From NCBI RefSeq assembly GCF_000716715.1, contig NZ_JNYJ01000008.1:186001-250000 (forward strand): a DNA stretch of 64,000 nt, in the 5' to 3' direction. The stretch is from Dactylosporangium aurantiacum (GTDB lineage: Bacteria; Actinomycetota; Actinomycetes; Mycobacteriales; Micromonosporaceae). This document shows, piece after piece, positions 5,482-20,805 of the stretch (its first letter is position 1; every line of letters begins with the position of its first letter). Under the pieces are notes generated by a model that did no database searches, was not told the DNA's origin, and was given only the letters and a program-made list of their open reading frames with translations. A program made the translations under genes and the position numbers.

Positions 5482-7188
5482 TCAGGCGTTGAACAGGTCC
5501 GCGATCTGTTTCATCCGCGCGTCGGTGGTCAGGTCCTCCAGCGTCAGCGGCAGCGGCACCCGCCAGTTCGGGTACTGCGTGGTCGTCCCCGGCAGGTTCG
5601 GCTGGCGGACCTCGCCGAGCACGTCGTACGGGGAGGCGAGCACGATCCGGCAGGGGGTGCGCAGCAGCAGCTGGTGCATCGCCAGGACGATCTCCTCGTC
5701 GGTGCTGTCGGGGCCGGTGAGCCCCTCGGCGTCGAGCAGGTCGAGCAGGGCGGTGCGGTCGGCGGTCGCGGTGGCCCACTCGACCTTGACGTCCCGGGTG
5801 AGGACGCCTGCCTCGGCCCGGGCCAGGACGTGCTCGCCGGACAGGAACCCGGCGGCGGTCGGCAGGTCGTGGGTGGAGATGCTGGCCATCGCGTTGTCGG
5901 GCCAGTCGCCGGGCGGCAGGAACCGGCCGTCGTCGTCGCGGGTGAACCACAGCACGGCCGAGCCGAGAATGTTGCGGTCCTGCAGGGTCGTGGTGACGAC
6001 CTCCTCGACGGTGCCGAGGTCCTCGCCGACGACGACGGCGCCGGCGAGCTTCGCCTCCTCGACGAGGATGCCGAGCATGGCCGCGTCGTCGTAGTAGACG
6101 TACGTGCCCCGCGCCGGGCTCTGGCCGGGCGGCACCCACCACAGCCGCCACAGCCCGGCGACGTGGTCGACGCGCAGCCCGCCGGCGTGGCGGAAGATGT
6201 CCCGCAGCAGGGTCCGCCAGGCGGCGTAGCCGGTGTCGGCGAGCCGGTCGGGGCTCCACGTGGCCAGGCCCCAGTCCTGACCCTGCTGGTTGAACGCGTC
6301 GGGTGGCGCGCCGACCTTCGCGCCGGCGGCGATGACGTCCTGCAGGGTCCAGGCGTCGGCGCCGCCGGGGTCGATGCCGACGGCGAGGTCGTGGATGATG
6401 CCGACGCTCATGCCGTCGGCGGCGGCGTTCGCGGCGGCGAGCTGCTCGGCGCAGCGCCGCTGCAGCCACGTGTGGAACGCGACGGCGGCCGGGTCGGCGA
6501 CGGCGTAGGCGGCGGGTCCGGGGCGGCGCAGCTCGGCGGGCCAGGTCCGCCAGTCGGGGCCGTGGTCGCCGACGAGCGCGCAGTAGACGGCGAAGTCGGT
6601 GAGGTCCGAGCGCTCCGCCGGCACCCGGGCGGCACCGGCGGGGCACAGCAGGGTGAGCGCGGCGCGTTTGGCCCGCCACACGCCGTCGTAGTCGATGAGG
6701 CCGTCGGCGGCGGGGGCGGGGCGCAGCGCGTCGACGGCGGCGCGCACGGCGGCGGTGGCGTCGCGGTACTCGGGCAGGTCGGTGACGCGCAGGTAGAGCG
6801 GGTTGACGAACCGCCGCGACGACGGCGAGTACGGCGAGGCCGGCAGCGGGTCGACGGGCGCGACCGCGTGCAGCGGGTTGACGAGGATCGCCCCGGCGCC
6901 GGTCGACTTCGCCCAGCGGGTGAACGCGGCGAGGTCGGCGAAGTCGCCGACGCCCCACGAGCCGGCCGAGCGCAGCCCGTACAGCTGCAGCATCCACCCC
7001 CAGGTGCGCGGCACCTCGGGCAGCGGGCCGGCCGGTTGGACCGGCGCGGCGGCGGGTGGGTTCGCGGGCGGGCCGAGCAGCGACAGCACCGTCCGCACGA
7101 CGGCGGGGTCGATGTCGACGCGTCGGCCGTCGGAGGTCTCGTAATAGGTCGCGACACCGCGGTGGAAGCCTGGCACGGGTCCAGTCAT
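5482..7188 (-). CDS. malQ: 4-alpha-glucanotransferase
   Basis: GH77 amylomaltase, 568 residues. It moves maltosyl or longer units between alpha-1,4-glucans in the cytoplasm. Visible motifs are SWGVGDFADL, LRVDHVAGLWRLWWVP (nucleophile Asp), VVVGEDLGTVEEVV (acid/base Glu) and STHDLPTAAGFLSG. The frame is open further upstream, but ATG 7188 is chosen because it forms a 4-nt ATGA overlap with the stop of the MEDS-STAS gene. It is the last gene of the eleven-gene leftward run and may carry its own role in glycogen turnover alongside treZ. Confidence 0.93.
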   Translation of the reverse strand: MTGPVPGFHRGVATYYETSDGRRVDIDPAVVRTVLSLLGPPANPPAAAPVQPAGPLPEVPRTWGWMLQLYGLRSAGSWGVGDFADLAAFTRWAKSTGAGAILVNPLHAVAPVDPLPASPYSPSSRRFVNPLYLRVTDLPEYRDATAAVRAAVDALRPAPAADGLIDYDGVWRAKRAALTLLCPAGAARVPAERSDLTDFAVYCALVGDHGPDWRTWPAELRRPGPAAYAVADPAAVAFHTWLQRRCAEQLAAANAAADGMSVGIIHDLAVGIDPGGADAWTLQDVIAAGAKVGAPPDAFNQQGQDWGLATWSPDRLADTGYAAWRTLLRDIFRHAGGLRVDHVAGLWRLWWVPPGQSPARGTYVYYDDAAMLGILVEEAKLAGAVVVGEDLGTVEEVVTTTLQDRNILGSAVLWFTRDDDGRFLPPGDWPDNAMASISTHDLPTAAGFLSGEHVLARAEAGVLTRDVKVEWATATADRTALLDLLDAEGLTGPDSTDEEIVLAMHQLLLRTPCRIVLASPYDVLGEVRQPNLPGTTTQYPNWRVPLPLTLEDLTTDARMKQIADLFNA

Positions 7189-8021
7189 ACCCCGCTGACC
7201 TGGTCGCGAAGCACGAGACTCGGCACGGTGTCGGCGCCGACGAGGTGCAGCGTCTGCCGCACGCCGCGGGTGCAGCGCACGACGGTGCTGCGGTGGGGGC
7301 GCGACGCGGCGAACCGGACGATGGTGCCGGCCCCGGCGGCGTCGAGGAAGCGCAGCTCGCTGGCGTCGAGCAGGACGGTGCTGTCGGCGCCGGCGACGAT
7401 GTCGAGGATGGACGGCAGGGCGGCGGCGTTGGAGGCGTCGAGCTCGCCGGACAGCCGCAGGTGGGCACCCCAGCCGCCGACGGTGAAGCGCAGCAGCGGG
7501 CCGGGGTGGACCGCGGCGATGGCGGTGAGGGCGTCCTTGGTGAAGCGGCGGCGGTCGTACAGGCACAGCCCGGCGACCCGGGCGTCGCCGAAGAACCGGT
7601 TCGCGGCCGCCTCGTAGCGCACCAGCTCGTCGGCGCCGAGGCCGGCGCGCAGCGCCCACGTCATCTTCCCGGCGAGGAACAGCCCCCCGTACCCGTCGCC
7701 GGCCGCCTGCTCGCGCATGGCGGCCATGCCGTCGAGCATCCGCTCGACGAGGGCCGGGCCGGTCCGCGCCGTCAGGTCGAACCCGCCGGTGCCGTACCGG
7801 GTGATGACCAGCTGCCCGGGCGCGGCGGCGGGGGCGGCGGCGGTCAGGTGCCGGGCCAGGTCCGCGTCGTCGGCGTCGAGGAAGACCGCGACCCGCTGGC
7901 CGGGGCGGACCCCGGCCCGGACGTAGCGGGTGAGCAGGTCACGGCACTCGTCGTCGGCGGAGTACATGGCGCTGACGTGGTCGCCCAGTCGCCATGATCG
8001 ATCCTCGCGCCCCTCCGACAC
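7185..8021 (-). CDS. MEDS (DcmR-type sensory) and STAS domain protein
   Basis: About 278 residues. Residues 10-165 look like an MEDS domain (LGDHVSAMYSADDECRDLLTRYVRAGVRPGQRVAVFLDADDADL), a sensory module often found with histidine kinases or anti-sigma switches. Residues about 175-278 form a STAS domain (LSGELDASNAAALPSILDIVAG, then VLLDASELRFLDAAGAGTIVRFA); the Ser usual at the phosphorylation site reads Asp-Ala-Ala here, so classic SpoIIAA-type phosphorylation may be lost. The start is uncertain: GTG 8021 sits on top of the GAGGAGG sequence that would serve as ribosome-binding site. It is 47 bp downstream of the mannosidase gene and overlaps malQ by ATGA. Confidence 0.78.
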   Translation of the reverse strand: MSEGREDRSWRLGDHVSAMYSADDECRDLLTRYVRAGVRPGQRVAVFLDADDADLARHLTAAAPAAAPGQLVITRYGTGGFDLTARTGPALVERMLDGMAAMREQAAGDGYGGLFLAGKMTWALRAGLGADELVRYEAAANRFFGDARVAGLCLYDRRRFTKDALTAIAAVHPGPLLRFTVGGWGAHLRLSGELDASNAAALPSILDIVAGADSTVLLDASELRFLDAAGAGTIVRFAASRPHRSTVVRCTRGVRQTLHLVGADTVPSLVLRDQVSGV

Positions 8022-8068
8022 CTCCTCAGCGTATGGAGAAACCCGATGCGGGGCTAGTAGTGCTTTGT

Positions 8069-10552
8069 TCAGCGCAGCCGCAGTGACCGAACGGCGTAGG
8101 GGCCGAGGGCCACGGCGGCCGGGTCGACCTGCGTGCCGCACGGGGTCTCGCCCATGGTGCACTCGCTCCAGTCCGAGGCGGCGACGCCGGTCACCGTCGC
8201 CACCGTCGCCGCGCCGGTCGGGTTCGCCAGGCGCACGACGACGCCGTCGCCGTCCTCGGCCGGCTTCACCGCGGTGACGGTCGCGCCGGTCACCGCCATG
8301 CCGGTGGTGTCGGCCGGCACGGCGGCGCCGAAGCGCAGCTGCCAGGCGCGCAACGGCGCACGGTGCAGCGCGGCCGCGTCCGCCATCTGCCGCTCGCCGG
8401 TGGCCAGGACGACGCCGACGGCGGCGTGGACGTCCCGCAGGCACTGCGCTTCGGGCGTGGGCAGTTGCGGTCCGGCGCCGGTGGTCCGTGACCGCAGGTC
8501 CGGCCGGGACAGCCAGCCGGTGGCGCGCAGCACCGTGACGGCGAGCTCGGGGCGGGTGGCCGGCAGCAGGCCCTGCACCTCGGGCAGGCCGGCGACGAGC
8601 AGGCCGAGCCCGCCGGTGGCGGCCCAGGTGTGGACCGGCGCGACGCCGCACTCGGCTTCGTGGGCGCGCTGCGTGGGCAGGGGCCCGAGCGGGGCGCTCA
8701 ACGGTCGGCGCAGGACGGAGAAGTGGGTGTCGGCGCTCCACGCGTCGGCGGGTTCGGCCGGGAAGTGCGCGCGAAGCCGGTGGTCCTCGGCGGCGTTGGT
8801 GAAGGACAGGTGCCAGTCGACGCGGTCGATGCCGCGCCACAGGGTGAGGGTGAGCCGGATCGGCACCCGCACCGTGTCGGCGGCCCGGGCCTGCCGATCG
8901 GCGGTCAGGCCGCCCGGCAGGTCGAGGTCGGCGTCGACGTGCCAGGTGCGGCGCACGGCGGTGGCGGTTTCGCGCACCGCACGGACCTGTGGCATGACCT
9001 CGAGGTCGTCGCGTGGCGGGTCGTAGTTGTACGTGTCGCCGGCGTCGCCGCCGTCGACGAGGCGGCCCAGGCCCGCCAGGATCCGGCCGGTCCCGGTGTC
9101 GGTCAGCGTGAACGACGCGTCGGCGGCGACCTCGACCCGCCACGGGTGCTCGAACGTGGCGCCCGGCCCGGCCGGCGCGTCGCCGAGCAGGACCTGGTAG
9201 CCGCGCCGGCCGCTGGGGCCGACGTCGGCGACGAACGCGAGCCGGTGCCGGGTCGCCGGCTTCGTGTCGGGCGGCAGGTCGACGTCGGCGCAGAACAACG
9301 GGGTGTCCTGGGACGCACCGGTCTCGAACGGCACGTCGCGACCGTCGCTGTCGCGCAGCCCGACCACGTGGCGCCCGGGTGCGCTGTACACCTCCAGCTC
9401 GACCGGTCCCCGCACGGGGCGCGGGTGGGGGTTGGCCACGACGACGGCGAGGGCGTCGGCTGACGGCGCGCCGTACAGCCGGGTGTCCAGGCCGAGCCGT
9501 TGCAGCGAACGCTCCAGCAGGTGTTCACCCGTCTGGGTGGCGCGGGCGAAGCGGACCTCGTTCTCGCGGTGGACCTCGTCGACCGAACAGCCGCAGATCG
9601 AGTCGTGCGGGCTGTTGGCCAGCACCAGGTCCCACGCGTGACGCAGGGCTCCGGTGGTGGCCGGGGTCGGTCCGGTCAGCGCCAGGTACGGCTCCACCCA
9701 GGTCTCCAGCAGGGTCTGCACCGCGACGTTGGCCTGCTTGAGGTACAGGCGCGAGGAGAGCGTGCCGGGCAGCAGGAAGGTCAGCCAGCCACCCGGATAG
9801 CGCAGTTCGCCGTCGACGACGGGTGCCGTGTCGCGGTCGTGGCCGGGATCGGCGAAGAACGCCGCGAGGCTGCTGTGCGTGAGCGCCGGGTCCGTGCGGT
9901 GTACCGCGGGAGCGAGGTGGTCGGCGCCGTTGAGCAGCAGCTGGGGGCCGCCGCCGACACGTTGCCGCTGCTGGGCGGCGTAGGCGGCGATCCGCTCGGC
10001 CATGCCGTCCTCGTGCCACAGCACGTCGGGCTCGTAGTAGCACTGGTTGACGGCGTAGACCTCCGAGCCGTCCGGGGATCGCCAGCGGAACCGGGCGTGC
10101 TGCGGTGGGGCGCCGCGCCAGACGAGCGCGGTGTCGAGGCCGAAGCCGCGCAGGATGCGCGGCAGGTCGGCGGGGTGGCCGAACGAGTCCGGGCAGTATC
10201 CCACCGTCGCCAGTCCCGCGCCGGCGGCGGCCCGCCGGGCGGTGAGCAGGTTGCGGATCAGGTTCTCGCCGGAGACGAGCTGGTTGTCGGCCAGCACGTG
10301 CCACGGGCCGATCGACAGCCGGCCGGCGCGGGCATGGTCGCGGACGCGTTCGGCCAGGGTCGGGTGCACCGCCTCGACATCGGTGACGGTGATCGTCTGC
10401 CCGTCCAGGTGGAAGGACGGGATCCGCCGCTCGTCCAGCGCGTCGCAGACCTGTTCGACGAGCTCGACCAGCCGGGCGCGGAAGGCCTCCATCGGCCGGT
10501 ACCACTCGCGGTCCCAGTGGACGTGGTGGACGACGTGCAGGTTCGAGGTCAC
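8069..10552 (-). CDS. GH38 alpha-mannosidase
   Basis: An 827-residue cytoplasmic glycosidase with no signal peptide. HVHWDREWY at residues about 8-16 holds zinc ligands, and YCPDSFGHPADLPRILRGFG near residue 120 carries the nucleophile Asp. HDSICGCSVDEVHRENEVRF follows, then the large beta-sandwich C-terminal half. GH38 enzymes cleave alpha-mannosides with retention. The bacterial forms include MngB, which acts on (phospho)mannosylglycerate, and broader mannosidases; which applies here cannot be told. GTG 10552 is chosen because it gives a GTGA overlap with nanE and has AGGAG six bases upstream. With NanE and a ROK kinase next door, the substrate may be an N-acetylmannosaminide or another mannoside. 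Confidence 0.9.
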   Translation of the reverse strand: MTSNLHVVHHVHWDREWYRPMEAFRARLVELVEQVCDALDERRIPSFHLDGQTITVTDVEAVHPTLAERVRDHARAGRLSIGPWHVLADNQLVSGENLIRNLLTARRAAAGAGLATVGYCPDSFGHPADLPRILRGFGLDTALVWRGAPPQHARFRWRSPDGSEVYAVNQCYYEPDVLWHEDGMAERIAAYAAQQRQRVGGGPQLLLNGADHLAPAVHRTDPALTHSSLAAFFADPGHDRDTAPVVDGELRYPGGWLTFLLPGTLSSRLYLKQANVAVQTLLETWVEPYLALTGPTPATTGALRHAWDLVLANSPHDSICGCSVDEVHRENEVRFARATQTGEHLLERSLQRLGLDTRLYGAPSADALAVVVANPHPRPVRGPVELEVYSAPGRHVVGLRDSDGRDVPFETGASQDTPLFCADVDLPPDTKPATRHRLAFVADVGPSGRRGYQVLLGDAPAGPGATFEHPWRVEVAADASFTLTDTGTGRILAGLGRLVDGGDAGDTYNYDPPRDDLEVMPQVRAVRETATAVRRTWHVDADLDLPGGLTADRQARAADTVRVPIRLTLTLWRGIDRVDWHLSFTNAAEDHRLRAHFPAEPADAWSADTHFSVLRRPLSAPLGPLPTQRAHEAECGVAPVHTWAATGGLGLLVAGLPEVQGLLPATRPELAVTVLRATGWLSRPDLRSRTTGAGPQLPTPEAQCLRDVHAAVGVVLATGERQMADAAALHRAPLRAWQLRFGAAVPADTTGMAVTGATVTAVKPAEDGDGVVVRLANPTGAATVATVTGVAASDWSECTMGETPCGTQVDPAAVALGPYAVRSLRLR

Positions 10553-11253
10553 GGGTGCTCCTGGCGCAGTGCGGCGGCGAACCGGGCGGTGATGGACGAC
10601 GGACGGGTGATCGCGGTGCCGACCACGACGGTGTGGGCACCGAGGCGCAGCGCCTCGGCGCACTGCTGCGGGGTGGCGAAGCGGCCCTCCGCGGCGAACG
10701 GGACGCTCAGCGTGCGTGCGAGCCGGGCGACGAGGGCGAGGTCCGGCCCGGGCGGCGGCGGGTCGGGCTCGGTGTAGCCGGCCAGGGTGGTGCTGACGAT
10801 GTCCACGCCGGCGTCCTGCGCGGCCAGCGCCTGGGCCTCGGAAGCGACGTCCGCCATGATCATTACGCCGCTGCGGTGCCGGATCGCGGCGACGGTCTCG
10901 GCGAGCGTGCGCCCGTCGGGTCGGTGCCGGTCGGTGCCGTCGATGGCCACGATGTCGGCCCCGGCCTCGGCGACGGCGATCGCGTCGTCGACGGTGGGCG
11001 TGATGTAGACCCCGTGCCGGCCGCGCTTGACCAGGCCGATGAGCGGCAGGTCCGCGGCGGCGGCCCGGATCGCGGCGATCTCGGCCAGGCCCTTGGCCCG
11101 GACACCGACGGCACCGCCGGCGCGGGCGGCCAGCGCCATGGCCGTCATGTGGATCGGCGCGTCGAGCGGTTCGCCCGGCTCGGCCTGGCAGGAGACGACG
11201 AGTCCGCCGCGCAGTGCGGTGAGCAGCGCCGCGCCGGCGGTCGCCGGCCTCAC
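10549..11253 (-). CDS. nanE: N-acetylmannosamine-6-phosphate 2-epimerase
   Basis: A 234-residue TIM-barrel enzyme that converts ManNAc-6-phosphate to GlcNAc-6-phosphate. The family pattern is strong: LRGGLVVSCQAEPGEPLD at the N-terminus, VGVRAKGLAEI, GRHGVYITPTVDDA, VAIDGTDRHRPDG, MADVASEAQALAAQDAGVDIVSTTLAGYT and LGAHTVVVGTAITRP. GTG 11253 overlaps the stop of the FAD oxidoreductase gene as GTGA. No nanA (sialic acid lyase) or sialidase is nearby, so free ManNAc or a ManNAc glycoside is a likelier source than sialic acid. The ROK kinase two genes further up could supply the 6-phosphate. Confidence 0.92.
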   Translation of the reverse strand: MRPATAGAALLTALRGGLVVSCQAEPGEPLDAPIHMTAMALAARAGGAVGVRAKGLAEIAAIRAAAADLPLIGLVKRGRHGVYITPTVDDAIAVAEAGADIVAIDGTDRHRPDGRTLAETVAAIRHRSGVMIMADVASEAQALAAQDAGVDIVSTTLAGYTEPDPPPPGPDLALVARLARTLSVPFAAEGRFATPQQCAEALRLGAHTVVVGTAITRPSSITARFAAALRQEHP

Positions 11254-12947
11254 CGGGGCACCGCCAGGGCCGCTGTCGCGTGCTCGCGCCACGTCGACGT
11301 CGCTGCCGCTGCCGGTGCCGGTGCCACTGCCGGCCCGGGCAGGCCGAGGCTGTCCCGCACGGTGGCGGCGGCGCCGTGCAATGCCGCCAGGTCGGCGGTG
11401 CCGGGCGTTTCGTCCGGACGCAGTCGCAGGTCGGCGGCGAGGTCCGCCTCCAACGCGCCGTGGGCGGCCAGCAGGTGGGCCGCCGGGAACAGCGGGTCGT
11501 CGGCGGCGACGTCGGCGATCCAGGCGAGCGGCACCGCGTGCCGGGCGAGGGCGAGCTGCGCCGTGACGAGCAGCGCCGGTGTGTCGACCACGTCGCGGGC
11601 GGTCCGGTTCGTGGCGCAGGCGACGGCGGCGAGCGCGCCGGCCGCCTCCCCGACCGCCCACTCGCCGTGGTGCACCCGGTACGCGGCCGCGGCGATCTGC
11701 GTCGCGGCGAGGTTCTTGGCGCCCATGAGCAGGTTGCCGACGCGGCCGACGAGCGCGTGGGCCGGGATCGTGAACGGTGCGGTCGGCTGGTAGACGGGGG
11801 CCGGGTGACCGGTGCGCTCGTGCAGGTCGATGTGATACCAGGCGACGCCGACGGAGCCCGGCAGGTGACGGGCCCGTGCCCGGCCGGGGACCGGGAGCAG
11901 GTCGTGACCGGTCACCGGCCGGTCGTTGCGCAGCCGGCGCGACTCGCGCAGATACGGGGCGGCGGCGTAGCCGTCGACGGTGCCGGCGTCGGCCGCGGCG
12001 AGCCGCAGACCCGGGTAGCCGCGCCCGCCGTCCTCCCGTGGGGCTTCGGTGCGCAGCCAGTGGATGAACGCGGCGGTCAGCTCCCGGCCGGCCCGCTCGG
12101 CGGTGTGTCCGTCACCGATGGGGTCGTAGCCGGCGCAGTCGTTGCTGGCCCAGTTGAGCACGATCAGCTCCGGTGTCCCGGTCCGGAGTCGCCGGTAGGT
12201 CCAGAACGGTGGTTTGCCGTCGGGGCCGTCGGTGAACATCCGGTAGCGGTGCACGCCGCCGTCCCAGCCGGCGATGTCGAGACCGCAGTGCTGCCGCAGC
12301 TCGTCGTACCGGGCCGGGGCCGGGCCGGGGTCGTCGCCGTCCCGGTCGGGGTGGTAGGTCAGCAGCGCGCACCAGGTGAACGACTGCTGGGCCTGGGGAG
12401 CCGGCCCGCCGGGGACGGCGAACGGCTCGCCGTGCGCGTCGGTGCCCTCGGAGCCGACGCTCCAGTGCTCGCCGGCCAGCGGCAGCAGGTCGCCGCGTTC
12501 GGTGGCGTCGATGAACACGGGGGCGGTCAGCCGGGTGCCGTCGGTGAACGTGACGGCCGTGACGGTGTCGCCGTCGACGGTCACCGTCTGCGGTGCGCTG
12601 TGCAACCGGACCTGCACGCCGTGCTCGGCGAGCAGCGCGTCGAGGACACGCTGCCCGACGGCGGGCGGGAAGCACAGCCGGCTGACCCAGCCGTCGCCGG
12701 GGTTGGCCGCTCCCCCGCAGGCCGCACGGATCCGGTCACGCAACTGCCGGTAGGCCGCCGACACGCCGAAGGTCTCGACGTGGGGGTGCTCGTCGAGCGC
12801 GCTGACGAGCTGCGTGGTGAGCTGGCCCCCGACGCGGTCGAGCTCCTCGGTCAGGATCACGGTCATGCCGGCGCGCGCGGCGGCGATCGCCGCGGCCACG
12901 CCGCCGAGGCCGCCGCCGACCACGACGACGTCTGCTTGCGATGTCAT
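11250..12947 (-). CDS. FAD-dependent oxidoreductase (FAD_oxidored family)
   Basis: A 565-residue protein. The Rossmann FAD-binding fingerprint is at the start (VVVVGGGLGGVAAAIAAARAGMTVILTEELDRVGGQLTTQ), and a second dinucleotide-fold segment (PVFIDATERGDLLPLAG) lies near residue 150. GNLLMGAKNLAATQIAAAAYRVHHGEWAVGEAAG near residue 415 is typical of the FAD_oxidored family that recurs in carbohydrate-degradation loci. The reaction is not known; oxidation of a sugar hydroxyl is a reasonable guess. No signal peptide is seen. ATGA overlap with the DUF4127 gene upstream and GTGA overlap with nanE downstream place it firmly in the operon. Confidence 0.85.
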   Translation of the reverse strand: MTSQADVVVVGGGLGGVAAAIAAARAGMTVILTEELDRVGGQLTTQLVSALDEHPHVETFGVSAAYRQLRDRIRAACGGAANPGDGWVSRLCFPPAVGQRVLDALLAEHGVQVRLHSAPQTVTVDGDTVTAVTFTDGTRLTAPVFIDATERGDLLPLAGEHWSVGSEGTDAHGEPFAVPGGPAPQAQQSFTWCALLTYHPDRDGDDPGPAPARYDELRQHCGLDIAGWDGGVHRYRMFTDGPDGKPPFWTYRRLRTGTPELIVLNWASNDCAGYDPIGDGHTAERAGRELTAAFIHWLRTEAPREDGGRGYPGLRLAAADAGTVDGYAAAPYLRESRRLRNDRPVTGHDLLPVPGRARARHLPGSVGVAWYHIDLHERTGHPAPVYQPTAPFTIPAHALVGRVGNLLMGAKNLAATQIAAAAYRVHHGEWAVGEAAGALAAVACATNRTARDVVDTPALLVTAQLALARHAVPLAWIADVAADDPLFPAAHLLAAHGALEADLAADLRLRPDETPGTADLAALHGAAATVRDSLGLPGPAVAPAPAAAATSTWREHATAALAVPR

Positions 12948-14425
12948 TGCTGCTCCACGTCGATGTCGATTTCGAAGGTGCGCCCCCACGGCAGGGCGAC
13001 GCTGCCGGGCCGCACCCGCCAGCCCGGCAGCGGGTCGAGCTGCCGCCAGCGCGCGGTGACGAGGCGCTCGATGCGTTCCTCGACGCCGGCGCCGGGCGCG
13101 ACCTCGTCGTGGCGGGTCGGATCGGTGCCGAGCTCGGCGCGGATGACGGCCCGGCCGTGCGACATGTAGGCGTGGTCCTCGGCGATCCGGTGGGCCAGCA
13201 GCCGCTCGTGCGCCCGCCGGTCCAACGTGCCGGTGGCGGTGCCGACGAGGTAGGCGGTCAGGTGCGCCGCGGCGCTGCCGAGGGTGTTGCCGGCCGTGTT
13301 CCACCCGGCGTACCCGGCGAGGCGTGGCAGCAGGTTCCGCTCGACGAGCGCGGCCAGCAGCGCGGGATCGGCGCCGTTCGGTGTGGCGCAGTCGGCGACC
13401 GCGACGGTCTTGCCGGCGGTGAGCAGCCGCTCGATCAGCACCGCGGTGGCCGCGGCGGCGCCCGGGTCGGGCGCGGCCGGCGGGTTGACCGCCCAGTCCG
13501 CGCCGCCGGGCCGGGGCGGGTGCACGACCAGGACCGCCGGGGCGTCCGGTGGCGTCGACGACGCGGCCAGGCCGGGTCGGGCGCCCGCGGCGGCGAGCTG
13601 GCTCATGGCACCGACGCCGACGGGCACGGGCTCGTAGGGGGCGATGAGCGACAGCTTCGCCGGGTCGGCGCAGACCACCGCGACGTCCGGTGCGACGTCC
13701 GCCGTCTGTGCCAGGGCCCGGGCGACGAGGACGGCACCGGTCTCGTCGGCGCCCGGATGGGACAGCACGGTGCCGCGCGGCTCCAGCCAGCCGGCCCAGG
13801 CGCGCAACCACTGCCACTCCGCGGTGCCGACCGCGTCGACGGCGGAGTCGTCGGCGCCGATCACCAGGGTGCGCAGGGTGCCGTCGGCGGCCAGGCCCAG
13901 CGCGTGCTGGTTGAGCAGGTGGTTGCGGTGCCGGCGGCGCAGGAAGTCCTGGCGGGCCGCCGCCGGCACCGTCGCGGGGTCCGGTGCGGCGGCGCCGTCG
14001 CGCAGCGTGCGGTGCAGCGCGGCCGAGTAGCGGTGCAGCGCGCGACCGCTGGTGGCCCAGTAACCGGGCTCCTCGCCGGCGTCGTCGGCGTCGGGCGTGC
14101 GCTGCACCACCGTTGCCGCGTGCACCGGCTGCGGCAGCTCGCCCAGCACGCGCCACCGCGCCAGGGCGGCGGTGACGGGCTCCTGACTGAGCCGGGAGGC
14201 GATGAGGCCCCCGTGGGCCAGGGTCTCCAGGCTGACCACCGCGGCGTCGGCGCGTGTGGTGCGCAGCCAGCCGGCGATCGCGTCGGCGTCGCCCGGCTGC
14301 CGTTTCGCCGGCAGCGCCCGCGGCGGCGGGCCGCACACGCGGGCGCCGGCCACCGCGGCGATCAGGGCCGGCAGGGTGCGGCAGACGGGCCGCTCGTCGA
14401 GCGGCACCAGCGCGATCGTGATCAT
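12944..14425 (-). CDS. DUF4127 family protein
   Basis: A 493-residue protein. The N-terminus ITIALVPLDERPVCRTLPALIAA is the hallmark of DUF4127, whose members begin with a PLDERPxN-type motif; here Asn is Cys. Other conserved-looking stretches are VSLETLAHGGLIASR, LVIGADDSAVDAVGTAEWQWLRAW, SHPGADETGAVLVAR, and VADCATPNGADPALLA with GYAGWNTAGNTLGSAAAHL. The many Asp, Asn and His residues in loops suggest a metal- or sugar-binding active site, but no function is established to my knowledge. It sits between the ROK kinase and the FAD oxidoreductase with 4-nt overlaps on both sides, so a part in the same catabolic route is likely. Confidence 0.85.
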   Translation of the reverse strand: MITIALVPLDERPVCRTLPALIAAVAGARVCGPPPRALPAKRQPGDADAIAGWLRTTRADAAVVSLETLAHGGLIASRLSQEPVTAALARWRVLGELPQPVHAATVVQRTPDADDAGEEPGYWATSGRALHRYSAALHRTLRDGAAAPDPATVPAAARQDFLRRRHRNHLLNQHALGLAADGTLRTLVIGADDSAVDAVGTAEWQWLRAWAGWLEPRGTVLSHPGADETGAVLVARALAQTADVAPDVAVVCADPAKLSLIAPYEPVPVGVGAMSQLAAAGARPGLAASSTPPDAPAVLVVHPPRPGGADWAVNPPAAPDPGAAAATAVLIERLLTAGKTVAVADCATPNGADPALLAALVERNLLPRLAGYAGWNTAGNTLGSAAAHLTAYLVGTATGTLDRRAHERLLAHRIAEDHAYMSHGRAVIRAELGTDPTRHDEVAPGAGVEERIERLVTARWRQLDPLPGWRVRPGSVALPWGRTFEIDIDVEQQ

Positions 14426-15342
14426 GATGGCTCCAGCGCGGTGATCGCGGCGCCGAAGAGCGCGGCGTCACCGCCGAGTGCGGTTGGCAGGACCGGGACG
14501 TCGGCGCGGATCGGCATCGCCGCGGCGGCGACCGCCGGCACGGTGGCGGCCAGCAGCGCGGGCACCGCGGCGCCGCCGCCGATGACGACCACGTCCGGGT
14601 CGAAGGTGTTGACGAGCCCGCCGAGGACGGTGCCGAGCGCCGTGCCGGCCTCGCGCAGGATCGTCGCCGCGAGCGGGTCGCCGTGCGCCGCGGCGGCCAC
14701 GACGTGCCGGAGGTCCATGCGCTCGGCGTCCGCACCGGTGGCCCGGCGTCCGGCGCGGTAGCGGGCGGTCATCGCCGGCCCGCTCGCCACGGCCTCGATG
14801 TGCCCGCTGCCCCCGCAGGGGCAGGGCAGACCGGCCGCCGGCCCGGCCGGTACGTGACCGAGGTGGCCGGCGGCGCCGCGCGCGCCGGTGAGGAGCCGGC
14901 CGCCGCTGATGATGCCTCCGCCGATACCGGTGCCGACCGCGACGCCGATCACGTCGCGCCGGCCGGCCGCCGCGCCGTGCCCTGCCTCGCCGAGGACGAA
15001 GGCGTGCACGTCGTTGATCGTCCGGCCGGGCAGTCCGGTCAGTGCCGTCAGGGCCGCGGTGACGGCGGTGCCGTCCCAGCCGTCGATGGCGTCGGTCGCC
15101 GAATGGACGACACCGTCGGTGTCGACGACGCCGGCCACCGCGGCGCCGAAGGCCACCGGCGCGGGAACACCGTCGCGCAGCGTGTCCAGCAGGTGCGCGG
15201 CCTGCCGCAGCACCGCCGCGCCGCCGTCCCGGGCCGGCGTCGGTGCCTGCGTCCGGGCGAGCATCCGGTCGTGCCGCACCAGCGCGACAGCGGTCTTGGT
15301 GCCCCCGATGTCGATCGCGGCGACGACACGGTCGCAGCTCAT
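14422..15342 (-). CDS. ROK-family sugar kinase
   Basis: A 306-residue kinase. The phosphate-binding loop is AAIDIGGTKTAVAL, the catalytic Asp lies in RTINDVHAFVLGEAGHGAA, VAVGTGIGGGII is the second ATP motif, and CPCGGSGHIEAVASGPA is the ROK zinc signature. It has no N-terminal HTH, so it is an enzyme and not a repressor. With NanE in the same operon, N-acetylmannosamine kinase (NanK-like) is the best guess, but glucose, mannose or GlcNAc are also possible. ATG 15342 overlaps the gntR stop as ATGA, and its own stop overlaps the DUF4127 start. Confidence 0.88.
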   Translation of the reverse strand: MSCDRVVAAIDIGGTKTAVALVRHDRMLARTQAPTPARDGGAAVLRQAAHLLDTLRDGVPAPVAFGAAVAGVVDTDGVVHSATDAIDGWDGTAVTAALTALTGLPGRTINDVHAFVLGEAGHGAAAGRRDVIGVAVGTGIGGGIISGGRLLTGARGAAGHLGHVPAGPAAGLPCPCGGSGHIEAVASGPAMTARYRAGRRATGADAERMDLRHVVAAAAHGDPLAATILREAGTALGTVLGGLVNTFDPDVVVIGGGAAVPALLAATVPAVAAAAMPIRADVPVLPTALGGDAALFGAAITALEPS

Positions 15343-16061
15343 GCGGTTCTCCGGGTGACGGTGATGCGGTACGAGTAGCGGTCGGCCCGGTACACCGACT
15401 CGCCGCGCTCCACGGCGCGGCCGGCGGCGTCGAAGGTGACCCGGGTGACGTGCAGCGCCGGCGAGAACGGCGGCACGCCCAGCAGCGCCGACTGGTCCGG
15501 GTCGGTGACGGTGGCGGCGATGATCTGGTCCGCGTGATGGGGGGCGGCGCCGCGTTCGGTGAGCGTCTCGTACAGCGATCCGCCGAGTCGGGACTCCTCG
15601 ACGTCGCCGACGACGGTGGCGAGGATCCAGACCTGCTCGACGCACATCGGGCTGCCGTCGGCCAGCCGCAGCCGCTCCACGTACACCACCGGCGTGCCCG
15701 GGGACAGGCCGAGGTCGCGGGCCACCTCCGCGGTCGCGGGAATCCGCTGCCAGGACAGCAGCTTCGACCCTGGTGTGAGGCGCCGGGCGCGCATGTCCTC
15801 GCTGAACGAGGTCAGTGCCAGCGACTTGGAGATCGTGGCCGGGTCGGCGACATAGGTCCCGGAACCCTGCTGGCGGTACACCCACCCCTCTTCTTCCAGT
15901 CGCCGCATCGCCTCGCGCACCGTCGCCCGGGACATCTGGTACCGCGCGGTCAGCTCCCGCTCGCTGGGCAACGGGTCGTGCGGCTGCAGCACCTGCTGGA
16001 TCTCGGTGAGCAGGCGCTGGTACACGATCTCGTGCTTGCGCTCCCCCTGCGTCGAGGTCAT
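15339..16061 (-). CDS. GntR-family (HutC/UTRA) transcriptional regulator
   Basis: A 240-residue repressor. The N-terminal winged HTH reads PLPSERELTARYQMSRATVREAMRRLEEEGWVYRQQGSGTYVA (residues about 30-72), and residues about 80-235 form a UTRA effector domain (TPVVYVERLRLADGSPMCVEQVW... EVxG-like core). HutC-type GntR proteins often sense sugar phosphates; GlcNAc-6-P or ManNAc-6-P would fit this operon. Placed inside the operon between permease and kinase with ATGA overlaps, it would be autoregulated. The AAGTGG...CCACTT site at 19191-19208 resembles DasR-type operators and is its probable target. Confidence 0.88.
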   Translation of the reverse strand: MTSTQGERKHEIVYQRLLTEIQQVLQPHDPLPSERELTARYQMSRATVREAMRRLEEEGWVYRQQGSGTYVADPATISKSLALTSFSEDMRARRLTPGSKLLSWQRIPATAEVARDLGLSPGTPVVYVERLRLADGSPMCVEQVWILATVVGDVEESRLGGSLYETLTERGAAPHHADQIIAATVTDPDQSALLGVPPFSPALHVTRVTFDAAGRAVERGESVYRADRYSYRITVTRRTA

Positions 16062-16894
16062 CCCTTGACACCGCCCTCACCGACACCGCGGAAGAACAGC
16101 CGCTGCAGCAGCAGGAACACCACGATCAGCGGCAGGACGGCGATCATGGTGCCGGCCGCGATGACCCGCTGGTCGTTGGTGAACGTGCCGGACAGGTACT
16201 GCAACCCGATCGTGAGGGTGTAGTTGTCGGGGTCCTTCAACACGATCAACGGCCACAGGAAGTCGTCCCACGCGAACAGGAAGCTGAACACGGCGACCAC
16301 CGCCAGGGATCCGCGGACGCTGGGCAGGGCGATCCGCCAGAACCGGGCCCACTCCCCGGCACCGTCGATGACGGCGGCCTCCTCCGTCTCACGCGGCAGT
16401 GCGAGGAACCCGGTGCGCAGTACCAGGATGGACAGGCCGCTGACCGCGCCGGGCAACAGGACGCCGAGCAGCGTGTCGACCAGGCCGAGGGCTTTGACGG
16501 TGAGGAACACGCTCACCATGATGACCTCGAACGGGATCACCAGGGCGGCCAACACGGCGGCGAGGACCGCGCCGCGGCCACGGAAGCGCATCCGGGCCAG
16601 GGCGTAGCCGGCCATCGCCCCGAACAGGCAGTTCGTGACGACGCTCGTCACGGCGACGATCATGGAGTTGGCGATGTACCGCCACACCGGCACGGTGTCG
16701 GCCACGGCGGCGTAGTTGTCCAGCGTCGGGTGTTGCGGCAGCCAGGTCGCGGACGTGCCGTAGATCGGCTCCTGGGCACCTTTGAGCGAGGTCAGCAACT
16801 GCCAGACGAACGGCCCGAGGCTGACCACCACCATGGCGCACAGCAGCAGGTAGCGTCCGGCCCGGCCGGTGTACAGCCGTGCTCTGGGGTTCAT
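16058..16894 (-). CDS. Carbohydrate ABC transporter permease, MalG/UgpE type
   Basis: A 278-residue inner-membrane protein with about six transmembrane helices. The EAA loop that docks the ATPase reads EEAAVIDGAGEWARFWRIALPSVRGS near residue 170. It pairs with the MalF-type permease encoded immediately upstream, joined by an ATGA overlap, and with the lipoprotein at the head of the operon. No ATPase gene is present, so the importer probably uses a shared MsiK-type ATPase coded elsewhere, as is usual for actinomycete sugar importers. Confidence 0.9.
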   Translation of the reverse strand: MNPRARLYTGRAGRYLLLCAMVVVSLGPFVWQLLTSLKGAQEPIYGTSATWLPQHPTLDNYAAVADTVPVWRYIANSMIVAVTSVVTNCLFGAMAGYALARMRFRGRGAVLAAVLAALVIPFEVIMVSVFLTVKALGLVDTLLGVLLPGAVSGLSILVLRTGFLALPRETEEAAVIDGAGEWARFWRIALPSVRGSLAVVAVFSFLFAWDDFLWPLIVLKDPDNYTLTIGLQYLSGTFTNDQRVIAAGTMIAVLPLIVVFLLLQRLFFRGVGEGGVKG

Positions 16895-17784
16895 GCCGAC
16901 GCCCCTTCCCCGGTGCGCCGGCGCAGCCGCAGGCTCAGTGCGGAGAAGACCAGCGTGCCGGCGAGCAGCACCAGGCTCAGGGCGGACGCGTATCCGATCT
17001 CGCCGTCGACGCCCAGGCCCACCTCGCGGATGTAGAACACCATGGATTTGGCGTCACCGCCGGGGCCGCCGCTGCCGTCGCTCATGACGTAGATCTCCGC
17101 GAACACCTTGGCGGCCGAGATCGCTGCCAGGGTGCCGACCAGCACCATGGTCGGGCGGACCGTGGGCACCGTGATCGACCAGAACCGGCGGGCCGGCCCG
17201 GCGCCGTCCACGGTCGCCGCCTCGATCACGTCGGACGGCACGTTGGCCAGCGCGGCCAGGTAGATGACCATGTAGTAGCCGAGCCCTTTCCAGATCGTCA
17301 CGGCCATGCAGCTGACCAGCAGCAGCGTGCTGTCGGTGAGGAACGGCAGCGGCTCGGCGACCACTCGCAGGCGCACCAGGACCGCGTTGACGATGCCGTC
17401 GCTGCGCAGCAGCCAGCTGAAGATGAGGCCGACCACGACCATCGACGCGACGACCGGGGTGTAGAACACGGCGCGGAACGCGCCGATGCCGGGCACCTTG
17501 GCGAAGACGAGCGTCGCCAGCAGCAGCGGCAGCACGACCAGCGCGGGCACCACGACGAGCAGGTACAGCACCGTGTTCATCAGCGCCTGCCAGAAGTCGG
17601 CGTCCGTGCCGATGCGGGTGAAGTTCGCCAGGCCGTTGAACCGGCCGCCGCCCAGGGCCCGGGCGTCGGTGAAGGCGAGCACGGCGGTGTTGGCCAGCGG
17701 GCCCCACAACACCACCGCGACCAGCACCAGCGCCGGGGCGAGGAACAGCCACGGCACGTACCAGCGTCGGCCGATCATCGGCAC
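16891..17784 (-). CDS. Carbohydrate ABC transporter permease, MalF/UgpA type
   Basis: A 297-residue membrane protein. The first helix is WLFLAPALVLVAVVLWGPLANTAVLAF, and the EAA loop reads IEAATVDGAGPARRFWSITVPTVRPT near residue 190. It forms the translocation channel with the MalG-type partner. A second in-frame ATG at 17778 is an equally good start. It follows the binding-protein gene after a 68-bp gap that contains a strong hairpin (17800-17829), a common way to make the permeases less abundant than the lipoprotein. Confidence 0.9.
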   Translation of the reverse strand: MPMIGRRWYVPWLFLAPALVLVAVVLWGPLANTAVLAFTDARALGGGRFNGLANFTRIGTDADFWQALMNTVLYLLVVVPALVVLPLLLATLVFAKVPGIGAFRAVFYTPVVASMVVVGLIFSWLLRSDGIVNAVLVRLRVVAEPLPFLTDSTLLLVSCMAVTIWKGLGYYMVIYLAALANVPSDVIEAATVDGAGPARRFWSITVPTVRPTMVLVGTLAAISAAKVFAEIYVMSDGSGGPGGDAKSMVFYIREVGLGVDGEIGYASALSLVLLAGTLVFSALSLRLRRRTGEGASA

Positions 17785-17799
17785 TTGTCCTTCCCGGAT

Positions 17800-17829
17800 C
17801 GGCCGGTCGGGACCTGGTGTCCCGGCCGG
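17800..17829 (-). terminator. Intercistronic hairpin (attenuator or mRNA stabiliser)
   Basis: Between the binding-protein stop (17853) and the permease start (17784) the transcript can form GGGAC-ACCAG-GTCCC with an outer CGGCC/GGCCG stem. There is no U-tract. Such hairpins often protect the upstream message or end part of the transcripts, giving more binding protein than permease. Confidence 0.45.
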
Positions 17830-17852
17830 ACGATCACCACCGTCGGATTCGG

Positions 17853-19166
17853 TTACTTGGCGAGCAGCTTGTTGGCCTCGTCGACGGCCTGGTTCAGCGC
17901 CGTCTTCGGGTCGAGGTCCCCCTTGACCGCCAGCTGGATCTTGCCGATCACGGCCGCTTTCGTACGGTCGTCGAACTGCACCGGCGTGAGGTTCTGGGCC
18001 TTGGCCAGCTGCTGGGCCGACAGCTTGCGGGCCAGGGACTCGGGCGTGCCGTCGGAGGTGTCGGTGAAGTACGGGTCGGTCAGCGACGTGGTCGTCGACG
18101 GCAGAATGGTCACGATCTTGGAGAACGCGAGCTGGTTCTCGGCGTTGGTCACGAACTTGGCGAACTCCAGCGCCAGCCGCGGGTTCTTGCTGGCCTTGGG
18201 CACGAGCAGGCCCATGACCGACATGTTCGTGAGACCGGTGGGACCGGACAGCTGCGGCCCGACCACCGTGTTGGCGGCGATCGCCGGCGCGTTCTGCTTG
18301 ACCACCTTGAGGAAGTTCGGCCCGGACGGGAACAGGGCGCTCTGCCCCGCGGAGTACGCCTCGGTGGCCTTGGAGTGGTTCTGCGTCAGCCAGTCCGGCG
18401 CGATGGCCTTGGTCTGGTACAGCTCACGCAGCTTGGTCACGTACTGCTCGGCGGTCGGGGTGTTGAACGTCCAGGCGGTCTGGTCCTGGTTGAGCAGCGG
18501 GACGTTGAGCTTGGCCAGGTCGGTGATGAAGCGGTTCTCCAGCGCCGGGTGCATGCCGTAGAAAGCGCCCTTGCCCGCCTCAGCGATCTTCTTCGACTGC
18601 TCCAGCGCCTCGTCGATGGTCGCGGGCGGCTTGGCCGGGTCGAGCCCGGCCTTGATGTAGAGGTCCTTGTTGACCATGGTCACCTCACTGGTGAGGTACC
18701 ACGGCAGCGCGAACCCACCTGGCTGCCCGGGGACCTTGAAGGCGTCCCAGGCGCCGGGGACGAAGGTGCCCTTGACGTCGCCGGCGTTGGCCTCGAGGTC
18801 GAAGAAGACCCCCTGCTTCTCCAGCTTCTGCGCGAAGTTCGGGTTCAGGTTGACCACGTCGGGCAGCGTGCCGGCCTGCGCGTCGGTGGTGATCTTCTCC
18901 TGGGCGCCCTGGAAGGGCAGGTCGAGCCAGTTGACCTTGGTGCCCGGGTGCGCGGTTTCGAACGTCTTGATCAGTCCGCTGATGTAGTCGTCGAACGTCG
19001 GCTTGAGCGCCAGCGTGGCGAAGGAGATCTCACCCTTGAGCTCTCCCGCCGGGATGGCGCCGTCCTTGGTCGCCGTGTCCTGCGCACCAAGACCACAGCC
19101 GGCGGTCGTCAGTGCGAGGCCCCCGGTGACCACCGCGGTCACGAACCAGCGCCGGGTTCGCATCAT
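17853..19166 (-). CDS. Extracellular sugar-binding lipoprotein of ABC importer
   Basis: A 437-residue solute-binding protein. The N-terminus MMRTRRWFVTAVVTGGLALT is followed by the lipobox TAGC, so Cys24 would be lipidated and the protein anchored outside the membrane. The mature part has the type-I sugar-binder pattern (ISFATLALKPTFDDYISGLIKTFETAHPGTKVNWLDLPF near the start, LALEFAKFVTNAENQLAFSKIVTILPS late). ATG 19166 is chosen because AGAGGAG lies five bases upstream; the longer frame from 19247 runs through the promoter. It heads the eleven-gene operon. The sugar it binds is not readable from sequence. Confidence 0.92.
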   Translation of the reverse strand: MMRTRRWFVTAVVTGGLALTTAGCGLGAQDTATKDGAIPAGELKGEISFATLALKPTFDDYISGLIKTFETAHPGTKVNWLDLPFQGAQEKITTDAQAGTLPDVVNLNPNFAQKLEKQGVFFDLEANAGDVKGTFVPGAWDAFKVPGQPGGFALPWYLTSEVTMVNKDLYIKAGLDPAKPPATIDEALEQSKKIAEAGKGAFYGMHPALENRFITDLAKLNVPLLNQDQTAWTFNTPTAEQYVTKLRELYQTKAIAPDWLTQNHSKATEAYSAGQSALFPSGPNFLKVVKQNAPAIAANTVVGPQLSGPTGLTNMSVMGLLVPKASKNPRLALEFAKFVTNAENQLAFSKIVTILPSTTTSLTDPYFTDTSDGTPESLARKLSAQQLAKAQNLTPVQFDDRTKAAVIGKIQLAVKGDLDPKTALNQAVDEANKLLAK

Positions 19167-19190
19167 CGCGTCTCCTCTTCGTTGATCGTC

Positions 19191-19208
19191 AAGTGGTACG
19201 TTCCACTT
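19191..19208 (-). promoter_or_regulatory. Probable GntR operator of the sugar operon
   Basis: The 18-mer AAGTGGTACGTTCCACTT is an inverted repeat with 16 of 18 positions symmetric. It lies 25 bp upstream of the binding-protein ATG and just after the predicted -10 box. Its AGTGG...CCACT arms resemble the DasR sites of the same HutC/GntR subfamily. Binding by the GntR protein of this operon is inferred. Confidence 0.65.
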
Positions 19209-19216
19209 GGGTCGTG

Positions 19217-19247
19217 AACCTAGCCCGTCACAACCGTCGACCGTCAA
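19217..19247 (-). promoter_or_regulatory. Predicted promoter of the sugar operon
   Basis: On the minus strand TTGACG (19242-19247) is followed after 19 bases by TAGGTT (19217-19222). The spacing is a little long. Transcription would start close to the edge of the 19191-19208 palindrome, a classic repressor position. Confidence 0.5.
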
Positions 19248-19860: not shown

Positions 19861-20748
19861 CTAGAGCCTGGGGGCGTCGTCGACGGTCTCGTCGGCGAGG
19901 GCGGCGGGGCCGACGATCAGCGGGTCGGGGGTGCCGACCAGGCTGTGGTCCTTGTTGTCGTAGTTGAACCGGTTGAGCACGTGCCGCATCGCCTCGATCC
20001 GGGCGCGTTTCTTGTCGTTGGACTTCACGACGGTCCAGGGCGCGTCGGCGGTGTCGGTGTAGAAGAACATCGCCTCCTTCGCCTCCGTGTAGTCGTCCCA
20101 TTTGTCCAGTGAGGCGAGGTCCATCGGGGACAGTTTCCACTGCCGGACCGGGTCGACCTGGCGGATCAGGAACCGGGTCCGCTGCTCGTTGCGCGACACC
20201 GAGAACCAGAACTTGACCAGGTTGATGCCGGAGCGCACCAGCATCCGCTCCAGCTCCGGCGCCTCCCGCATGAACTCCAGGTACTCGGCGCGGGTGCAGA
20301 AGCCCATGACACGTTCCACGCCGGCCCGGTTGTACCAGGACCGGTCGAACAGCACGAACTCCCCGGCGGCCGGCAGGTGCTGCACGTACCGCTGGAAGTA
20401 CCACTGTGTCAGCTCGCGTTCGCTGGGCTTCTCCAGCGCGACGACCCGGGCGCCGCGCGGGTTGAGGTGCTCCATGAACCGCTTGATGGTGCCGCCCTTG
20501 CCGGCGGCGTCGCGGCCCTCGAAGAGGATCACCAGCCGTTCGCCGCCGGACTTCAGCGTGTTCTGCAGTTTCAGCAGCTCGATCTGCAGCAGGCGCTTGG
20601 TCCGGTCGTACTCGTCGCGGGTCAACCGCTCGTCGTACGGGTAGTCCTCCCGCCAGGTGTCGACCGGCCGACCGTCCTTGCGCAGCAGCACGGGGTCATC
20701 GTCGTCGTCGTCCTCGACGAGGTAGTCATCCAGTGACAGGTCAGCCAT
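19861..20748 (-). CDS. ppk2: Polyphosphate kinase 2
   Basis: A 295-residue PPK2-family enzyme that transfers phosphate between polyphosphate and nucleotides. Walker A is LFEGRDAAGKGGTIKRF near residue 75. The lid and Walker B region reads FDRSWYNRAGVERVMGFCT, and DKWDDYTEAKEAMFFYTDT follows. A run of Asp residues (DDDDDDP) lies near the N-terminus. Start ATG 20748 (MADLSLDDYLVE) is preferred to the longer frame from 20784, which adds only a basic leader. Class I, which makes ATP or GTP from NDP, is the likely type for a single-domain protein of this length. It appears to be a single-gene unit. Confidence 0.93.
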   Translation of the reverse strand: MADLSLDDYLVEDDDDDDPVLLRKDGRPVDTWREDYPYDERLTRDEYDRTKRLLQIELLKLQNTLKSGGERLVILFEGRDAAGKGGTIKRFMEHLNPRGARVVALEKPSERELTQWYFQRYVQHLPAAGEFVLFDRSWYNRAGVERVMGFCTRAEYLEFMREAPELERMLVRSGINLVKFWFSVSRNEQRTRFLIRQVDPVRQWKLSPMDLASLDKWDDYTEAKEAMFFYTDTADAPWTVVKSNDKKRARIEAMRHVLNRFNYDNKDHSLVGTPDPLIVGPAALADETVDDAPRL

Positions 20749-20805
20749 GCCACTGATGTACCCGCTCGCCCGCCGTTTCACCACTGCCGGCGTTTGAACG
20801 GTGCG

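Follow-up and report, generated by a model that had tools for sequence, protein, structure and literature searches.

What does a protein of the DUF4127 family do among genes for the catabolism of N-acetylmannosamine (ManNAc), and where would that ManNAc come from? The question is raised by nine genes on the minus strand (8069-19166) of a 64,000-nucleotide stretch of Dactylosporangium aurantiacum DNA, the whole of which is called the window below and is numbered from its first letter. They encode a substrate-binding lipoprotein, two permeases, a GntR-UTRA regulator, a ROK kinase, the DUF4127 protein, a flavin adenine dinucleotide (FAD) enzyme of the FAD_oxidored family, NanE and a GH38 hydrolase. 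NanE and NanK are commonly taken as sialic-acid genes, and the literature found on NanE with ROK and GH38 and on ManNAc catabolism is mainly sialic acid work. In the host genome (11.44 Mb), no NanA reaches its cut-off (best match 127 bits against 382) and the one BNR_2 sialidase match lies below its own, so that sialic acid is unlikely; the original prediction, made from the window alone, had argued this from the lack of both genes, and the argument now extends to the whole genome. We propose, with a probability of about 0.5, that these genes form a self-regulated operon for a glycan containing ManNAc and mannose, in which the DUF4127 protein would free the ManNAc.

Organisation of the operon

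All coding features lie on the minus strand. In reading order they are the lipoprotein of a sugar ATP-binding cassette (ABC) transporter (17853-19166; SBP_bac_1, PF01547, 3.5e-34), ABC sugar permease 1 (16891-17784; BPD_transp_1, PF00528, 1.8e-11), permease 2 (16058-16894; PF00528, 3.7e-17), the GntR-UTRA regulator (15339-16061; PF00392, 7.1e-22, and PF07702, 3.5e-41), the ROK sugar kinase with its HLGH motif (14422-15342; PF00480, 1.9e-52), the DUF4127 protein, our proposed ManNAc-releasing enzyme (12944-14425; PF13552, 6e-109), the FAD-dependent oxidoreductase (11250-12947; PF12831, 4.4e-80), NanE, the ManNAc-6-phosphate (ManNAc-6-P) 2-epimerase (10549-11253; NF002231, 270 bits, cut-off 189), and the GH38 alpha-mannosidase-type hydrolase (8069-10552; PF01074, 4.1e-24; PDB 2wyh, 9.4e-60). 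Two further genes follow, for a MEDS-STAS protein and MalQ, and Pfam cut-offs are passed for SBP_bac_1, both BPD_transp_1, GntR, UTRA, ROK, DUF4127, FAD_oxidored, NanE, GH38, MEDS and STAS. The eleven reading frames are all open and on one strand, and eight of the ten junctions are four-nucleotide overlaps, both as first described. From permease 1 to GH38 seven consecutive junctions overlap in this way, with ATGA at the five from permease 1/permease 2 through permease 2/GntR, GntR/ROK and ROK/DUF4127 to DUF4127/FAD, and GTGA at FAD/NanE and NanE/GH38; the eighth overlap, ATGA, joins MEDS to malQ. The GH38/MEDS junction reads CTGA, an unusual start, and the next plausible MEDS start is the GTG at 8021, which leaves a gap of 47 nucleotides. 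The lipoprotein more likely starts at the ATG at 19166 than at the TTG at 19247, because GAGGAG stands just upstream of the former and a lipobox is, by eye, in register with it.

Upstream of this start lies the perfect palindrome AAGTGGAACGTACCACTT (19191-19208, 24 nucleotides ahead of the lipoprotein ATG), a predicted operator of the form AAGTGG-N6-CCACTT that occurs as a single exact copy in the genome. We take its GT...AC shape to fit GntR sites, and the GntR-UTRA regulator encoded in the operon itself probably binds here. The shorter form TGGT-N4-ACCA, to which the window's own palindrome does not belong, is found within 300 bases before the lipoprotein start in 18 of the 32 relatives whose lipoprotein start was placed by script, with a variant in L023; shuffled sequences gave a mean of 0.1 and a maximum of 2, and elsewhere in these loci the density was 0.017 sites per 300 bases. 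Six relatives (L027, L028, L031, L032, L035 and L036) carry an exact match to the 18-bp form. Two loci without FAD and GH38 (L038 and L044) have sites with two mismatches ahead of their ROK genes, which is weak evidence, and loci L023-L049 hold 29 sites at up to two mismatches, where simple shuffling, which does not preserve dinucleotides, gives about 9.7. In the genome the pattern at up to one mismatch occurs at two places, and the reversed control pattern 20 times per strand; the operator evidence is limited to exact and near-exact sites before operons. One operator ahead of an unbroken series of seven overlaps would fit a single transcript.

Conservation of the gene set

The operon is more than a chance arrangement, because the gene set recurs in related loci and genomes; it is widely conserved, across several bacterial phyla. 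The loci compared are 80 from named genomes, the best 80 of 343 matches to a DUF4127 alignment and skewed to Actinomycetota; a Priestia locus supplied the seeds of the profiles with which neighbours were counted, and locus L040 that for GHL10. NanE accompanies DUF4127 in 46 of these loci, the FAD enzyme in 50, ROK in 38, GH38 in 35 and GHL10 in 16, and NanE, ROK, FAD and GH38 stand all together in 21. Thirty loci are shorter than the full flanks; among the 50 with full flanks the counts are 34 for NanE, 30 for ROK, 34 for FAD, 26 for GH38 and 14 for GHL10, and partners are associated pairwise, in tests that disregard relatedness, for NanE with ROK (p 1e-4), FAD with GH38 (p 0.002), NanE with GH38 (p 0.015) and GHL10 with GH38 (p 3e-4). 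When the distances of the best-scoring family member in each locus were compared with those of DUF4127 (Mantel, 999 permutations), the correlations were 0.92 for FAD (47 loci), 0.89 for GH38 (30), 0.88 for GntR (40), 0.83 for NanE (49), 0.82 for ROK (40) and 0.78 for both permease 2 and the lipoprotein; none of the 999 permutations reached the value of any of these seven neighbours.

A test independent of the choice of loci searched each of 394 genomes of the class for DUF4127 and NanE, a full NanE being a match of E < 1e-40 (the next match was at 1e-7) and the weak DUF4127 match of genome G355 being dropped. A full NanE was present in 14 of 14 genomes with DUF4127 and in 25 of 380 without (Fisher, 7.6e-16). 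The co-occurrence of DUF4127, FAD_oxidored, NanE, ROK and GH38, which the original prediction had named as its check, is strong. The DUF4127 proteins nearest to the window's come from Catellatospora and Micromonospora, and in a genome of the same genus (L132) two adjacent DUF4127 genes, their matches 181 nucleotides apart, adjoin a divergent FAD gene, lipoprotein, permeases, ROK and NanE.

The enzymes of the operon

The operon's NanE is the only NanE match in the genome. PMC8482478 names Gln11, Arg40, Lys63, Asp124, Glu180 and Arg208 as active-site residues of SaNanE, and an alignment to 4utt finds all six kept in the window protein, within VSCQA, VRAKG, LVKRG, MADV, AEGR and AITRP. In its HLGH motif the ROK kinase matches E. 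coli NanK, where the two histidines are His153 and His156 (PMC5458393); HxGH is found in 20 of 43 ROK rows, the window's and others that are all from Actinomycetota. A specificity for ManNAc is plausible on the strength of this motif. GH38 scores 85.9 bits against Glyco_hydro_38N (cut-off 25), and its HWDREWY, PDSFG and PHDSICGCS stretches align with the catalytic part of 2wyh; we take these stretches to hold the nucleophile Asp and the zinc ligands. NagA is encoded elsewhere in the genome, above its cut-off.

The DUF4127 protein passes the gathering score of PF13552 over the whole length of the profile (365 bits, positions 1-489 of 489). No sequence relative was found among PDB entries, and an AlphaFold2 model has a pLDDT of 96.7. 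The protein apparently consists of two Rossmann-like domains and has no invariant His, Lys, Cys or Ser; for Lys this holds across 109 sequences of the family. The protein is probably cytosolic. The FAD enzyme scores highly along nearly the whole FAD_oxidored profile in most loci, and its PDB matches are partial and mostly confined to the dinucleotide-binding part.

Variant loci and a secreted partner

Three natural experiments point to ManNAc. In three Chloroploca loci (L060, L081 and L084) NanE is absent and a relative of N-acylglucosamine 2-epimerase (AGE) stands between ROK and DUF4127; that of L081 (PF07221, 3.5e-48) scores 367 bits against the N-acyl-D-glucosamine 2-epimerase model (cut-off 600) and 68 against cellobiose 2-epimerase. 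A relative of this protein also lies in the locus stretch of four class genomes (L119 and L121-L123), with 150 bits to the AGE model in L123. Plasmids of Carnobacterium and Enterococcus faecalis cut the set down to NanE, a HAD protein, DUF4127, a lactose/cellobiose-family IIC protein of the phosphotransferase system (PTS) and an RpiR-type regulator; the Carnobacterium genes follow the annotation, the HAD and regulator of Enterococcus were judged by eye, and the Enterococcus NanE and both IIC proteins were assigned by NCBIfam, the latter above the cut-off. Import by the PTS makes a kinase unnecessary, and of the products encoded from NanE up to the PTS gene, where neither plasmid shows a glycosidase, DUF4127 is, besides the HAD protein, the only one that could split an imported disaccharide. 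Nor was an FAD enzyme seen in the stretch read of either plasmid, by annotation in Carnobacterium and by eye in Enterococcus. The third case, a Priestia megaterium plasmid, carries by annotation FAD, GH38, two ROKs, an acetylxylan esterase, DUF4127, manA, NanE and a family 10 hydrolase, the gene content to be expected if both mannose and ManNAc were released.

The GHL10 proteins of 16 of the 80 loci, confirmed by Pfam in four (L040, L045, L049 and L076), are in many cases of about 800 residues with apparent signal sequences (by eye), and several of their genes are divergent from the lipoprotein gene, across the operator. We take E. coli DigH to be a GHL10 protein. PMC12288456, where the name GHL10 does not appear, describes DigH as hydrolysing denuded peptidoglycan glycans. 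The GHL10 partner suggests, and no more, that the substrate would be a wall-derived glycan.

Discussion

The model we propose begins with a secreted GHL10 hydrolase, which in several relatives would probably release an oligosaccharide outside the cell, and with the lipoprotein and permeases, which would import it. Inside the cell GH38 would remove mannose, the FAD enzyme would prepare or modify the sugar, and DUF4127 would free ManNAc by breaking its bond, through glycosidase, phosphorylase or lyase chemistry. The ROK kinase would phosphorylate the ManNAc, NanE would turn ManNAc-6-P into N-acetylglucosamine-6-phosphate (GlcNAc-6-P) and NagA would continue from there, while GntR would control the operon from the palindrome until a sugar of the pathway appears. 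The substrate, the regulation and every reaction apart from the family function of NanE are what we infer here. That the operon serves ManNAc catabolism as such is likely; that DUF4127 is a new carbohydrate-cleaving class, which together with a dedicated flavoenzyme would release ManNAc, or ManNAc-6-P where import is by a PTS, from glycans of the bacterial wall, is a tentative and rather doubtful extension. The core view of the original prediction is right, and better founded than the window alone could show: its route, in which an imported saccharide would yield ManNAc and probably mannose and feed GlcNAc-6-P by way of ROK and NanE, is supported. The specificity of the kinase stands at the level of a motif, and its scores lean slightly towards glucokinase. 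The operator, the AGE relative that replaces NanE, the PTS variant and the secreted GHL10 enzyme of certain relatives were beyond the view of that prediction.

Could DUF4127 do something else than release ManNAc? It might act in a later step or a side branch, as a deacetylase or on a second sugar, with the ManNAc for NanE coming from another cut. This would suit the 15 of 80 loci in which DUF4127 has none of the four partners, and the variety of its contexts; the full NanE in each of the 14 class genomes with DUF4127 speaks against it, as do the PTS plasmids, which show no glycosidase in the interval from NanE to the PTS gene. We regard it as unlikely. A closer partnership with the FAD enzyme can also be imagined, in which the latter would oxidise the sugar (to a 3-keto form, for example) and DUF4127 would eliminate the aglycone, the loss of stereochemistry at C2 turning a GlcNAc glycoside into ManNAc and hence requiring NanE. 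Such a redox-assisted cleavage would account for both unknown enzymes together; none of the other six neighbours compared tracks the distances of DUF4127 as closely as FAD does, and in 13 loci FAD alone, of the four, pairs with it. Yet 15 of the 80 loci, some of them cut at contig ends, keep ROK, NanE or GH38 beside DUF4127 without FAD, and, since FAD is also unseen in the PTS versions, some DUF4127 reactions probably proceed without it; nor does a Gfo/Idh protein substitute for it, being present in 4 of 34 full-flank loci with FAD and 2 of 16 without (p 1.0). We consider this mechanism quite unlikely.

A link to sialic acid would be restored if DUF4127 were a non-homologous nonulosonate lyase replacing NanA and yielding ManNAc and pyruvate. 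In 10 of the 80 loci DUF4127 stands with ROK and NanE and lacks both FAD and GH38, an arrangement that mirrors nanA-nanK-nanE. Against this, the genome has no sialidase above the BNR_2 cut-off, the lack of an invariant Lys in the 109 sequences hardly allows a NanA-type Schiff-base aldolase, and GH38, GHL10 and a cellobiose-type PTS are ill-suited to sialic acid. Moreover, none of 17 Jiangellales genomes is listed as positive in a survey of nan clusters (PMC8754123), yet two Jiangella genomes hold DUF4127 and a full NanE. This reading is quite improbable.

Returning to the model proposed above, several observations weigh against it. The 80 loci, as the best of 343, are heavy in Actinomycetota, and the 15 without NanE, FAD, ROK and GH38, together with the 13 where FAD is the sole one of the four, imply that the family is not tied to ManNAc in every case. 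In the full-flank loci NanE and FAD are not associated beyond their shared link to DUF4127 (p 0.33). Nine of the 14 class genomes with DUF4127 belong to one family, and only seven of the 14 have their NanE within 10 kb of DUF4127, two more having it about 20 kb away. The ROK kinase scores higher against the glucokinase model than against the NanK model, all scores being below the cut-offs, a glucokinase heads its matches in the PDB, and 15 of the 43 ROK rows have Glu at the place of the motif. No second exact copy of the operator occurs genome-wide, and the upstream stretches of 14 of the 32 relatives have no site, most of these being loci of the NanE-less type. The host's own GHL10 genes are not near the operon. 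Finally, a Subdoligranulum plasmid (L108, 7001-14741) carries DUF4127 with an ABC transporter and a PfkB-like kinase (by eye), no NanE being seen, a setting that perhaps reflects another role for the family.

Other settings and neighbouring genes

The same Subdoligranulum stretch encodes a protein of the aminoglycoside 3-N-acetyltransferase family (PF02522), a DUF4434 protein (PF14488) and, by eye, two open reading frames resembling ADP-ribosylglycohydrolases. A second type of DUF4127 locus (L053-L055, L062, L068-L070, L072, L077, L093 and L102) consists of ABC genes, DUF4127, a LacI-type regulator (checked with Pfam in L093 only) and FAD, without NanE or ROK; near that of L070 lies an opposite-strand protein with a DUF6351 tannase-like domain. 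PhyH-family dioxygenases accompany DUF4127 in L061, L074, L092, L095 and L099 (by Pfam in L061, where an oligopeptide-type ABC ATPase is also present).

Adjoining the operon in the window is an odd pair, a MEDS sensory domain fused to STAS (7185-8021, minus strand; PF14417 and PF13466) and the overlapping gene for the 4-alpha-glucanotransferase MalQ (5482-7188, minus strand; above the NCBIfam cut-off of TIGR00217). The original prediction had counted both as members of the operon. Their profile matches are confined to the window, none being found in the 80 related loci, and we therefore dropped them from the unit; they look like passengers outside the conserved set. Just upstream of the operon, a gene at 19861-20784 (minus strand) seems, by eye, to encode a polyphosphate kinase 2 family protein.

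Significance and comparison with known systems

In Actinomycetota, Chloroflexota and Bacilli, NanE and ROK genes stand beside DUF4127 and in most cases have no NanA relative with them; of the loci searched, one (L075) holds a protein related to the DHDPS-family member that comes nearest to NanA in the genome. The association would indicate that ManNAc also comes from another source, so far unrecognised, for which ManNAc-containing polymers of the wall (teichoic linkage units, for instance, or secondary wall polymers) are plausible. In the literature searched, which did not cover subscription papers, neither DUF4127 by name nor the string acetylmannosaminidase was found. If our proposal is true, DUF4127 would supply the N-acetylmannosaminidase-type step that has been missing from a sialic-acid-free route of ManNAc catabolism, and the activity, if confirmed, would name a protein family that has no function and correct many annotations.

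How does the operon compare with what is known? UPF0261 and the Tm-1 N-terminal domain (PDB 9mpy and 3wrx) stand among the closest known systems and were compared with DUF4127 for a possibly shared fold. The GH38 alpha-mannosidase 2wyh, from Streptococcus pyogenes, shares with the window protein the N-terminal and middle domains and the HWDREWY, PDSFG-type and PHDSICGCS stretches, whereas the C-terminal similarity is weak and the rest of the operon differs; the sole NCBIfam model that matches the window GH38, mannosylglycerate hydrolase (NF007331), does so at 297.6 bits, far below its cut-off of 1138. Muropeptide recycling clusters combine RpiR/MurR, NagZ and a PTS. RpiR regulators, NagZ-like GH3 proteins and GHL10/family 10 hydrolases also lie near some DUF4127 relatives, but the core here is NanE with DUF4127, and the one SIS protein scanned is nearest to NagB-II, not MurQ. 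The nan operon shares with this one the ROK kinase and NanE, followed by NagA, that is, the same lower route from ManNAc, and has NanA where the present operon has DUF4127, the FAD enzyme and GH38. What is new in the present operon is the way into that route.

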